Source of the DNA: Candidatus Peribacteria bacterium
Lineage (GTDB): Bacteria > Patescibacteriota > Gracilibacteria > UBA1369 > LOWO2-01-FULL-3
Direction of reading: 5' to 3'
Length of the DNA stretch: 64,000 nt
Assembly (NCBI GenBank): GCA_943356465.1
Contig: CALREX010000001.1
Location: 1-64,000, forward strand
Within the stretch, counting starts at the first letter, position 1. Every line of letters begins with the position of its first letter. Both the position numbers and the translations under genes were made by a program. The notes under the pieces were generated by a model. It was not told the origin of the DNA, searched no databases, and saw only the letters and a program-made list of their open reading frames with translations. This document shows, piece by piece, positions 43,198 through 47,914 of this stretch.

Positions 43198-46125
43198 TTA
43201 TTCAACCAAATCCTGCAACATTTCCATAATTTCCTGATTTCCACGAACAAAATTAAGCAAACCAAGCTCAATCTTCCTAACTTTTTCCAAAGGAATACCC
43301 AACTTTTTAGAAAGCTCCGCTAAAGTCAGATTTTTACCGTCAACTCCAGATCCAAACCTGTGAATAAAAACATCAAAATCACGATCCTTCCGACTTGAAC
43401 CCGAATATCCAGCAAAAAACTTAGATTTCAGCGAAGCTAAAACATTTTTTTTATCTACAATAGCAGGATTAACAGACAAACCAACAACATCCTCATAAAC
43501 TTTCTTAACCATTGCATCTCCGTAGACTACCAATAACTCAGCAACATTTGAATATTTATCATGTTTTCTTATTTTATCAAAAAAATCATCATCAAAATCA
43601 CCTGCAAGCATTTGATTCTTGGCTAGGTCCAGCATCTTTTGAGTTACGACTCCATTTCCAATAGTTTTAGTCAATCCATGCAAAACACCAACCATAAGCT
43701 GTATATACAAAACTTTAAGCTGCGGCTCAATATTCATACCATCAACTTTCGAACAAATTTGATCAATAAATTCCGTGATTCCCTTCAAAGAATATTTGCT
43801 ATAACCAGCCACAAGCTCGGCAACAATAGCACTCCTATCTTTAAGCGCACCATCTTGCAAGAACTGTAATTTTTGAAACATTGTAGCAGGACTGGTTCTG
43901 GTACTTCTCCAGCCGGTGATTGCAAAAGCTCCATCACCCAAAGCTTCACCAAGGCGTTCACGCGCAAATCTATTTTTAATAGCATTCCTAAGCCTCGTAA
44001 TCCATATACGCTTTATGGAGGGAAGCGACTTATCCAAAAGATCTTCATAATCACTGAAATCTAAAGAACTTTTACCACAATCTTCCACGCTAAGCTCCAC
44101 TCCTCTAAAAAAAGTAACTTTTGCCCTAAAGTCCTCAACAGTTTCACCGCCGGCAACAAGCCTTTTCGCCAATAAATCATCACATCCGACATTTTTCAAA
44201 TAAATAACAATATCTCGTTGTTCCGGTGTTAAATTGTCAGCGTTCTCGCAAGCCACAAGCCCATCAAGACCAGCATACATAACATCTCTTGTTACAGGCA
44301 TTTTCAGCCTATTCAATTCTTCTATTTTTGCAAAGGCATACTCAACTCTCTCCATATTTTCACAAAAATAATCCATATCCTTATAACCAAATCTATATCT
44401 TCTAAACACAGCTTCAAGCTCTTTTTTCCTTTGCACACGCAAAACAACACTTTTCAAAATTGCCATGTAATCGGCATCTTCATCGGAAAGTGCTGTAACT
44501 TCAGCATCATCAGCCTCTTCAAGAACAACTTCAATGTCAATTTTATCAATTTTTGCACCAACCGTAGGTTTAAGTCTCTCAGCCAGATTTATTCTTAAAG
44601 TCCATTTTTCCGCATTCTCATCTGAATCATCGACCAATTTATCTCTTACAAAATACCTGAATTTTGCAATTGGAAATCTATTTGACCAAGACCATTGATA
44701 ACGCCCGTCATATCCAGCCGCTTTCAAAACTTTACAATATTGCCGTATATTATCAGGCTCGGCATCAACAGCGGTCCTATACATAGCGGCAACATCAAAA
44801 CCATAAATTTCAGCCAACTCATTTCTTCTATCATTTTTCGATAACTTTCTCCATGTCTCCTCTATCTGAGCATCCCGCTGGGCGGCAGCACCATTCAACC
44901 ACCACCAATATTCAGATTTAAAAGGCACACCTCTAGCCTCAATCCCTTCAATATGTTCAAGAATTCTTGCAGAACCGCTCTTCATAAGATAAGAAGGGGG
45001 CAGATCTATATTTCTCTCGGCAAGAAAATTTGAAAGTTTTTCATCAGCAGCATTTTTATCCAATTTTCCTCTTTGAAATTTCTTTGCAAATGACCTGATT
45101 ATATCGGTCGTTCTCATAAGCAAACTGATTTTTACTTCTCCAAACAACTCAATCATAAGCTCTGCTCTCTCAAGCAAAACAGAAGGCTTACATTTTTTTA
45201 ACTGAGTCGACAACCCATCAAAAGGATGGCCAAATTCAGCTAATTTTGCCATCGCCTGCCTTTCATTTTCATCAAATTTTCTCTCACGTTTTTTACGAAC
45301 TTTCGGTATCACATCATCATTTTTTGGACTGGATTCAATCACATCGTCACCATCCTGTCCAACATCAGAATCATCAGCAACCTTAGCCTCAAAATCAATT
45401 TCCTCACCCAAAATAATTTCCTTCACAGCATTTGAAAAACTTCCATAACAGGCTATAAAACCACGAGAATAGTGGATAACTTCACGAAAAACAGGCAAAT
45501 TTGAATCAGGTTTATACTCTCTATTTACATGAGAAAATCCATTCTTTTTGTTATACACACGCCAAAGATCAGCGGAAATTCTCATTTTCACATCCTGTAT
45601 ATCTTTTAGATCAACGATCAAAGGAAATCCCATATCACGAACAAGCTCATCAAAACCGGAATCAAAGGATTCTCTAATCCTTTTATTAAAAGTAATTGGA
45701 TGAACACTATACTGAGGATTTCTAAACATAAAAAGAGTAGCTTCCAAATATGCAAATTTTTCTCCTGCATCATACCGCACTTTAAAATTCTTAAACTGAT
45801 CGTCAAAAATATCTTTCAAAAAAGTTAATTTTCTTCTTACCTCAACAACTTTTTCAGCCACGGAAGAAGCCATCATCCTAAGCTCATCATCTGCAGAAAG
45901 CCTCAAACTTTCCAAAACTTTATCAATAGCACCAGAAACACCGGACAAAATAAAATCGATATTAAAATTTCCATTGATATTCAAAATCCTGTCACGCACT
46001 TTACTGAAAACAGCGACAATTGCAGGAAATTTCTGAACTTCGGTGGAAGCGGCAACTTTATCAACAATTTGCAAAGCCTGCTCACCGCATGACATCTCAA
46101 AATTGGCATCTACCGTTTTATACAT
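43198..46125 (-). CDS. 975-aa hypothetical protein with C-terminal sigma-region-4-like HTH
   Basis: Long ORF; C-terminal KNLTLAELSKKLGIPLEKVRKIELGLLNFVR. Confidence 0.75.
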   Translation of the reverse strand: MYKTVDANFEMSCGEQALQIVDKVAASTEVQKFPAIVAVFSKVRDRILNINGNFNIDFILSGVSGAIDKVLESLRLSADDELRMMASSVAEKVVEVRRKLTFLKDIFDDQFKNFKVRYDAGEKFAYLEATLFMFRNPQYSVHPITFNKRIRESFDSGFDELVRDMGFPLIVDLKDIQDVKMRISADLWRVYNKKNGFSHVNREYKPDSNLPVFREVIHYSRGFIACYGSFSNAVKEIILGEEIDFEAKVADDSDVGQDGDDVIESSPKNDDVIPKVRKKRERKFDENERQAMAKLAEFGHPFDGLSTQLKKCKPSVLLERAELMIELFGEVKISLLMRTTDIIRSFAKKFQRGKLDKNAADEKLSNFLAERNIDLPPSYLMKSGSARILEHIEGIEARGVPFKSEYWWWLNGAAAQRDAQIEETWRKLSKNDRRNELAEIYGFDVAAMYRTAVDAEPDNIRQYCKVLKAAGYDGRYQWSWSNRFPIAKFRYFVRDKLVDDSDENAEKWTLRINLAERLKPTVGAKIDKIDIEVVLEEADDAEVTALSDEDADYMAILKSVVLRVQRKKELEAVFRRYRFGYKDMDYFCENMERVEYAFAKIEELNRLKMPVTRDVMYAGLDGLVACENADNLTPEQRDIVIYLKNVGCDDLLAKRLVAGGETVEDFRAKVTFFRGVELSVEDCGKSSLDFSDYEDLLDKSLPSIKRIWITRLRNAIKNRFARERLGEALGDGAFAITGWRSTRTSPATMFQKLQFLQDGALKDRSAIVAELVAGYSKYSLKGITEFIDQICSKVDGMNIEPQLKVLYIQLMVGVLHGLTKTIGNGVVTQKMLDLAKNQMLAGDFDDDFFDKIRKHDKYSNVAELLVVYGDAMVKKVYEDVVGLSVNPAIVDKKNVLASLKSKFFAGYSGSSRKDRDFDVFIHRFGSGVDGKNLTLAELSKKLGIPLEKVRKIELGLLNFVRGNQEIMEMLQDLVE

Positions 46126-47172: not shown

Positions 47173-47200
47173 TTGAAAAATTTTCGAAAAGTGCTAAAAT
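47173..47200 (+). promoter_or_regulatory. promoter TTGAAA-16-TAAAAT
   Basis: TTGAAA 47173-47178, TAAAAT 47195-47200; predicted start near 47207. Confidence 0.6.
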
Positions 47201-47206
47201 AGATAC

Positions 47207-47264
47207 ATTCGCAGTTAGTTGATGTGACTTGTCATAAAAGGCCTCCTTTTGGAGGCCTTTTGCA
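47207..47264 (+). ncRNA. putative small RNA ending at a bidirectional terminator
   Basis: Promoter at 47173-47200, terminator hairpin at 47236-47261; starts with ATTCGCAGTTAGTT, complementary to the tRNA-like RNA on the opposite strand. Confidence 0.5.
47236..47264. terminator. bidirectional intrinsic terminator
   Basis: AAAAGGCCTCC-TTTT-GGAGGCCTTTT, T-rich in both directions. Confidence 0.85.
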
Positions 47265-47271
47265 TAATTGA

Positions 47272-47341
47272 TGGTGGAGATGTCGGGAATCGAACCCGTG
47301 TCAACTAATTCGCAGTTAGTTAACGCAAACCTGCCATCCCC
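47272..47341 (-). tRNA. atypical 70-nt tRNA-like / tmRNA-TLD-like RNA with G3-U70, CCA encoded
   Basis: Minus strand GGGGATGGCAGGTTTGCGTTAACTAACTGCGAATTAGTTGACACGGGTTCGATTCCCGACATCTCCACCA: acceptor GGGGATG/CATCTCC, arm AACTAA-CTGCGAA-TTAGTT, T-loop TTCGATT, CCA. Confidence 0.7.
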
Positions 47342-47455
47342 ACCCCAAAATGCATACTGGTTATATCAGATGGATATTAAATTTTCGTTAAAAAAACTTA
47401 ATATTTTTCTAAAATAATGTAATATAAAAAACGCAATATATTAATCATATTCAAT

Positions 47456-47914
47456 ATGGCAATGTCAGAAAAACCTCGTTCCATACCAGCAGAATCAGAA
47501 CAATTGAAAAACGATCTTGAATCGGTAAAAAAAGAGAATCTGGCAAATTATCCGAAAACGGAAGAATTACGCAAAAAAGATCCTGAAAAATTTGACAACT
47601 ATTATAAAGACTTATGGAAACAGGAAAAACCTGGCAATAAACGTCGCATAGAGACATTGAAAACACTGGAAAACCTCCTTCAATGGTGGACAGAACTTGA
47701 TGAAGTAAACAAAGAAAATTTGATAAATTATCCGGCAACAGAGAAATTACGAAAATATAATCCATCAGAATTTGCACATCAATACAACAAATATTGGACA
47801 AAATTCGCAAAACTTCCGGAAGGCGAACGCCGCTTCAAGGCTCTACAAGGACTGGAAAACAATTTACAAAAAAATAAAATTGTAGAATCCATGAACAAGA
47901 GACTTCGCAAATAA
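47456..47914 (+). CDS. small hypothetical protein with two tandem ~50-aa repeats
   Basis: NLANYPKTEELRKKDPEKFDNYYKDLWKQ... repeated as NLINYPATEKLRKYNPSEFAHQYNKYWTKF... Confidence 0.65.
   Translation: MAMSEKPRSIPAESEQLKNDLESVKKENLANYPKTEELRKKDPEKFDNYYKDLWKQEKPGNKRRIETLKTLENLLQWWTELDEVNKENLINYPATEKLRKYNPSEFAHQYNKYWTKFAKLPEGERRFKALQGLENNLQKNKIVESMNKRLRK

Follow-up and report, generated by a model that had tools for sequence, protein, structure and literature searches.

What kind of RNA gene begins and ends like an alanine-accepting tRNA or a tmRNA, yet presents a loop that could be read as an arginine anticodon? The question is raised by a short element in a member of Candidatus Peribacteria whose genome is 1.08 Mb in size and 98% complete (relatives are recorded as Candidatus Peribacteria or Peregrinibacteria). 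The stretch of this genome that was analyzed, 64,000 nt in length, is referred to as the window, and positions below are those of the window unless a locus is named. An initial annotation, made from the letters alone, had considered a tmRNA stripped of the mRNA-like domain, an alanine tRNA that reads arginine codons, and a decayed tRNA fragment.

Anatomy of the element

Read on the minus strand from 47341 to 47272, the element is GGGGATG.GCA.GGTT.TGC.GTTAACTAA.CTGCGAA.TTAGTTGAC.A.CGGG.TTCGATT.CCCG.A.CATCTCC.ACCA, exactly the sequence and coordinates first assigned to it. The minimum free energy (MFE) fold is an uninterrupted cloverleaf, with a 7-bp acceptor, a D stem of 3 bp closed by a GGUU loop, a T arm, A73, and an encoded CCA (Table 1). 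The stem at the anticodon position was originally given as 6 bp, but it is in fact 9 bp, it covaries across homologs, and it closes a 7-nt loop, CUGCGAA. The computed MFE is −25.3 kcal/mol (z = −3.0; z = −3.7 for the 67-nt form). When a 76-nt form is folded the helix grows to 10 bp, and the pairing of leader with trailer is seen again in relatives.

Parts of the surrounding gene recur as well. A box of the TGATATAAC type occupies the equivalent place in close homologs, the AT-rich upstream tract is found again ahead of other copies of the family, and the terminator hairpin is kept in position in homologs while its sequence changes. Among the protein-coding neighbors, a 152-aa ORF upstream of the module (47456–47914, plus strand) contains two diverged repeats of ∼50 aa (..ENLANYPKTEELRKKDPEKF.. 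and ..ENLINYPATEKLRKYNPSEF..) and has no Pfam match; the C terminus of a 975-aa ORF (43198–46125, minus strand) weakly resembles sigma-70 region 4 (22.8 bits, below the cut-off).

Table 1. Features of the tRNA-like RNA and its antisense partner in the window
Feature	Position	Strand	Basis or remark
Ala-type tRNA-like RNA	47272..47341	-	70 nt; sequence, fold, homologs, covariation
Acceptor helix of the tRNA-like RNA	47341-47335/47282-47276	-	7 bp
5' leader, TGCATTTTGGGGT region	47342..47357	-	GGUG:CCACC pairing lengthens the acceptor helix
Predicted extended -10 of the tRNA-like RNA, TGATATAAC	47360..47368	-	Sequence match
AT-rich tract upstream of the tRNA-like RNA, TTTAGAAAAATATTAAG...AAAATTTAAT	47369..47432	-	UP-element-like; putative function
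Predicted bidirectional terminator hairpin, AAAAGGCCTCC-TTTT-GGAGGCCTTTT	47236..47261	.	Common to both convergent transcripts
Predicted antisense sRNA, AUUCGCAGUUAGUUGAUGUGACUUGUCAUAAAAGGCCUCCUUUUGGAGGCCUUUU	47207..47261	+	∼55 nt; hybrid energy; antisense homologs in relatives
Predicted sRNA promoter, TTGAAA-16-TAAAAT, TG before -10	47173..47200	+	Sequence match
Primary antisense target, loop and 5' strand of stem	47308..47321	-	Perfect 14-nt complement of sRNA 47207-47220
Secondary antisense target, AUGGCAGGU (acceptor/D arm)	47329..47337	-	sRNA 47227-47235, ACUUGUCAU, with G-U pairs; by eye

Fit to tRNA and tmRNA categories

Annotation pipelines label copies of this family tRNA-Arg, tRNA-Leu, tmRNA, or nothing. 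ARAGORN, one of the programs that the initial annotation had proposed running, does call tRNA-Arg(GCG) at the window locus, with the 5′ end placed differently, at 47347. We rejected a canonical tRNA-Arg(GCG): the RNA has the 7-bp acceptor, the 5-bp T arm with its TTCRANT loop, and the D-loop GG of canonical tRNAs, but it has neither a 5-bp anticodon stem nor a conserved anticodon. The proposed alanine tRNA for arginine codons fails for a related reason, as the GCG triplet varies among the loops of relatives. GCG is thus a lineage variant, and its agreement with the neighboring tRNA-Arg is coincidental.

The Rfam tmRNA model (RF00023) aligns to the whole length of the element, the mRNA-like domain appearing as a deletion. 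The match scores 43.0 bits (E = 9.8e-15), short of the gathering score of 47, and other copies score 25.8–41.8 bits. At 70 nt in all, the element has no mRNA-like domain with a tag reading frame (the model match skips that domain). The suggestion that it stands in for ssrA does not survive inspection of the host genome, which contains a full ssrA (C1:112898–113296, 106.8 bits, tag ANLDNLAKRLALREALVLA) as well as smpB; the element is therefore neither a relic nor a replacement tmRNA. Full ssrA genes occur in 73 of 89 genomes of the order, so the tRNA-like element coexists with ssrA.

A two-piece or permuted tmRNA was also considered and rejected, given that a single 70-nt RNA includes both GGGG and CCA and that its partner is an antisense RNA (see below), not a coding piece. 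BLAST matches in phages were mostly to Stenotrophomonas phages, and the two inspected (L184, L185) are permuted tmRNAs outside the tRNA-like family. Viral contigs searched for the tRNA-like pattern gave no match, and no plasmid homolog of the element was found.

A patchily distributed family with alanine identity

Judged by sequence and covariance models, the window element is a member of an RNA family that is conserved and multicopy in Candidatus Peribacteria and scattered among other Patescibacteria. Starting homologs came from BLAST of 79 relatives, with matches in the genus and the family, and covariance models were built from these. Copies were recovered in 16 of 30 genomes of the family, 49 of 90 genomes of the order (up to six per genome), and 43 of 292 genomes of the class; in a phylum sample of 389 genomes they occur in 21 using model R2 and in 33 using model R3. 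Family members score 52–84 bits with R2, whose three matches at ∼40 bits are ordinary tRNAs except for L142:673–747. The weakest listed R3 matches include ordinary tRNAs (e.g., the host tRNA-Thr, 57.6 bits), and 33 of 389 is thus an upper figure. Under this partial sampling of genomes the distribution is patchy, with zero to six copies per genome.

Covariation supports the fold. A simple MAFFT alignment of 11 homologs is 92.4% paired, with a score (0.379 versus 0.191 shuffled; 0/500) well above both controls. For 61 homologs, 96.2% of cells pair (score 0.837 versus 0.197) and two-sided changes number 473 cells versus 130 in shuffles, in an alignment that, like some others used, was model-fitted, which favors it. 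The idea of a decayed fragment had coupled a normal ssrA with an absence of conservation; the normal ssrA is there, but conservation and covariation are both strong, and the element is therefore not decayed.

The acceptor is constrained in a specific way. Of 103 distinct copies, 102 have G3:U70 and every one has A73; the pair at 4:69 may be GC, CG, AU, or UA, and the pairs at 5:68, 6:67, and 7:66 vary freely. Conservation of this kind is the hallmark of recognition by alanyl-tRNA synthetase. The original description of a tRNA-like RNA with the alanine element G3:U70 is borne out, and the element is kept, along with A73 and G2:C71, across more than 100 homologs. G3:U70 is invariant in tmRNA, for which recognition by alanyl-tRNA synthetase has been stated (PMC3985003).

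Two sets of outliers deserve mention. Seven single matches with G3:U70 (L154, L156, L160, L163, L164, L165, L168; 52–65 bits) come from records of Chloroflexi, Thermoleophilia, Proteobacteria, and Verrucomicrobia. Because none has a credible antisense partner and the folds of several are poor, we left them out of the family; perhaps they represent another family of mini tRNA-like RNAs. The exceptional R2 match noted above, L142:673–747 (minus strand), has a complete D arm as in tRNA-Ala, a loop of 8 nt (CUCGUCAU), and a predicted antisense RNA. It is a possible intermediate between tRNA-Ala and the tRNA-like family.

A predicted matched antisense partner

The initial annotation overlooked a 14-nt direct repeat, ATTCGCAGTTAGTT, at 47207–47220 and 47308–47321 (101 bp apart), and with it the dedicated antisense RNA predicted on the plus strand adjoining the element. 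The predicted −10 box of this sRNA ends 6 nt ahead of the repeat at 47207, and its hybrid with the tRNA-like RNA is computed at −16.1 kcal/mol net. Tandem relatives have a segment analogous to the second one listed in Table 1, in which, by eye, GCUGC faces GCAGC.

We scanned 300 bp on each side of 113 copies, a set that includes the seven look-alikes from outside Patescibacteria, and found an antisense partner (score of at least 10) in 99, compared with 3.9% when tRNA-like RNAs were swapped between loci. Two of the 99 are doubtful: L086, an acceptor-only match, and L168, one of the look-alikes. The 14 copies scoring below 10 comprise six look-alikes outside Patescibacteria; L051, L100, and L047, which run off a contig or are interrupted; L080, L084, L146, and L177, which score 8–9 at the same place; and L098, for which no partner was found within 300 bp on either side. 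Only one of 22 ordinary tRNAs in the same loci has a partner, and that one is the aberrant tRNA-Ala-like copy L142. Among R3 copies that had not been used for pattern discovery, L188, L189, L190, L193, L195, and L197 have a partner and L191 a weaker one (score 9); in the same follow-up set, two ordinary tRNAs have none, and L194 is a tandemly duplicated tRNA-Ala that matches its own duplicate.

The 99 partners lie convergently downstream (53), in tandem downstream (27, with their own promoter and terminator by sequence match), divergently upstream (17), or in tandem upstream (two). A TATAAT-like box (at least four of six positions) precedes the complement in 93%, mostly ending 5–7 nt before it, a figure that is the best of a 12-nt search without null comparison. 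Coverage by the complement peaks at nt 26–32, which is the loop, and the median net hybrid energy is −17.0 kcal/mol for cognate pairs and −2.0 kcal/mol after swapping. The stem differs in sequence from copy to copy, and the antisense changes along with it. That it does so whether the gene is convergent, tandem, or divergent argues for pairing between RNAs rather than a DNA repeat.

Several individual loci add detail. The downstream antisense regions of L059, L060, L089, and L091 also copy the 3′ acceptor strand plus CCA, and that of L086 the 5′ acceptor strand; by their sequences, such sRNAs could also mask the charging end. Near a cobalamin riboswitch, L170 (WY4.bin85) has two tandem-type copies ∼230 bp apart, both with an antisense of their own. 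In the genus of the window, a few copies have lost acceptor features and kept the antisense: L046 has G3.A70, L044 is altered in the acceptor and T stem, and L112 has lost CCA. The last of these is a second copy in the host genome (L112:2670–2740; C7:16669–16739) that seems decayed, with an A4.C69 mismatch and CAT for CCA; its antisense retains a TATAAT promoter.

The loop

Loops of relatives include CUACGAA, CAGCGAA, UUGAGAC, CUGAUAC, CUUGUCA, and CUCGUCAA, among others. They are 7–8 nt long (many are 8 nt) and mostly of the form U33-N-R. The 7-nt loops have U33 in 32 of 39 cases and A38 in 34 of 39; position 37 is often C, and the triplets vary without codon preference. A core resembling YU(U/C)G(U/A)CA recurs in distant families, so the loop is not free to vary and may have a reader besides the antisense. 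YUNR U-turn loops, which these resemble, are known entry points that speed antisense pairing (PMC6562991).

Cassette behavior

In three other species of the genus (G001, G002, and G003), rfbD- and rfbA-like genes flank a copy of the module, whereas the orthologous intergenic region in the genome of the window is 60 bp long and empty. The ∼265-bp two-RNA module is thus present or absent as a unit. In G003, DNA encoding a large serine recombinase (PF07508/PF00239) interrupts the copy at the CCA end. This recombinase element (L047:1338–2774 and L048:1–160) apparently inserted exactly at the CCA end, as if at an attachment site.

Proposed function and alternatives

The fold, the alanine identity marks, the antisense complementarity, the promoter and terminator sequences, and the cassette behavior make up an anatomy that is strongly supported by comparison of sequences, and we consider it very probable that the element is an Ala-type tRNA mimic under antisense control. 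One RNA would be the mimic, ∼70 nt long, with alanine identity (G3:U70, A73, G1:C72, G2:C71), a T arm, the D-loop GG, and CCA; in place of the Ala anticodon it presents a non-Ala loop on a long stem. The other would be an antisense of ∼50–60 nt whose 5′ end pairs with the exposed 7–8-nt loop and then with the 5′ strand of the stem; a second segment, in the cases inspected, would reach the D arm or acceptor. Both RNAs are predicted to be transcribed, given the sequence matches to promoters and terminators. The sRNA would nucleate on the loop, invade the stem by displacing its 5′ strand, proceed to the D arm, and thereby destroy the fold and block charging. Free mimic would be charged with alanine and bind EF-Tu. 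At the toxic step, which we guess, charged mimic would interfere with translation at EF-Tu or the ribosome, the antisense serving to keep it off. The module would come and go as a cassette, with a matched antisense accompanying each copy.

Our best explanation, with about an even chance of being correct, is that the mimic is kept inactive by its dedicated antisense RNA in an RNA–RNA arrangement like a toxin–antitoxin system (type VIII-like). Granted the antisense-controlled mimic, a toxin–antitoxin-like role could equally well turn out right or wrong, and toxicity itself is a guess. A matched, promoter-driven antisense for every copy, in combination with the patchy multicopy distribution and the cassette behavior, suggests an RNA that is harmful if unrestrained; a regulated but useful tRNA-like RNA would show a similar pattern. 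The recurring loop core and the few copies with damaged acceptors but a retained antisense also count against our explanation.

The main rival to the toxin reading, which we regard as unlikely though still worth serious attention, is such a useful effector, switched on when the antisense falls. It could be a mini-tmRNA that works with EF-Tu and SmpB at stalled ribosomes, or a non-ribosomal alanine donor. The tmRNA-like ends, the alanine identity, and the co-occurrence with ssrA and, in the host genome, SmpB are consistent with this, as is the G3:U70 that is likewise invariant in tmRNA (PMC3985003). However, the mimic can make no template or tag, its distribution is patchy at zero to six copies per genome, and one antisense per copy exceeds the need of a single switch. 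Alanine tailing in RQC was rejected specifically: no NFACT of the RqcH type was found above the cut-off in 89 genomes of the order, leaving the effector no RQC alanine-tailing partner.

It is improbable that the roles are reversed, with the sRNA regulating mRNAs in trans and the tRNA mimic serving as a sponge that titrates it. The 5′ end of the sRNA would make an accessible seed, and it has its own strong predicted promoter, but a sponge has no need for the G3:U70, A73, T arm, and CCA that more than 100 copies retain, and the sRNA seeds vary between copies within one genome, tracking the mimic. There is similarly little to expect from a mistranslating tRNA, a broader form of the arginine-codon idea, in which the loop is a true anticodon and alanine is inserted at other codons (possibly this is the toxic step). 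Alanine identity is independent of the anticodon, which suits this idea, as do the frequent U33 and A38 of the 7-nt loops. Allo-tRNAs with mismatched anticodons are known (PMC7609411). The 8-nt loops, the frequent C37, the absence of codon preference, and a stem of 9 bp rather than 5 bp all count against it. Finally, a role at the DNA level, in which no RNAs pair and the repeated stem-loop serves a mobile element as a signal for attachment or transposition, would suit the cassette-like module and the serine-recombinase element at the CCA end in G003, but it is very improbable indeed, because the stem-loop copy may be direct or inverted, upstream or downstream, yet its orientation always gives an antisense after a −10 box, a constancy that no DNA rule predicts.

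Returning to the antisense-restrained toxin, we suggest tentatively, and at somewhat less than an even chance, that the family represents a new class of RNA–RNA toxin–antitoxin or phage-defense system in Patescibacteria, in which an alanine-charged mimic derived from tRNA-Ala poisons translation and a rapidly co-evolving antisense unfolds it, starting at the loop. In the open-licence literature that we searched, no tRNA-like RNA was reported to have an antisense gene of its own, and no Rfam family covers the pair; the family is previously undescribed. If confirmed, the mechanism would be a new way of controlling or weaponizing a tRNA mimic, in discrete cassettes that occur in a huge, mostly uncultured bacterial radiation with tiny genomes.

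Comparison with known systems

In type VIII toxin–antitoxin systems both partners are RNAs, one antagonizing the other (PMC10767807). Like SdsR/RyeA and creTA, the present family has two RNA genes on the same or opposite strands, adjacent and with complementary regions (in the 99 of 113 copies with a partner, against the swapped null of 3.9%). SdsR and RyeA, however, overlap and are not tRNA-like (PMC6610125), CreT, which CreA represses together with CRISPR-Cas, acts by sequestering a tRNA (PMC8501985), and toxicity of the mimic is, in the present family, a guess only.

Allo-tRNAs share the unusual cloverleaf, the acceptor-based identity, and the diverse anticodons, and some non-canonical tRNA forms have been speculated to be linked to toxin–antitoxin systems or transposons (PMC7609411). 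Their acceptor branch is 8/4 or 9/3 and their identity Ser, whereas the family described here combines a 7-bp acceptor and a 5-bp T stem (7/5) with Ala identity and a dedicated antisense.

Among Rfam families, tmRNA matches the window element best, and the likeness to the tRNA-like domain of tmRNA is extensive: GGGGNUG/CANCUCCACCA ends, invariant G3:U70, a T arm, CCA, and a helix that replaces the normal anticodon arm. The family differs in having no mRNA-like domain, tag, or pseudoknots, in its paired D stem, in being multicopy and patchy, in coexisting with a normal ssrA, and in having its own antisense RNA.

With tRNA-Ala, the family shares the acceptor identity (G3:U70 and A73), the T arm, and the D-loop GG. 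It differs in the absence of an Ala anticodon and of a linker before the D stem, and in its stem of ∼9 bp, loop of 7–8 nt, and matched antisense gene. L142:673–747 retains a tRNA-Ala-like 5′ half (GGGGCTGTAG), as in the host tRNA-Ala, which suggests that the family descends from tRNA-Ala.
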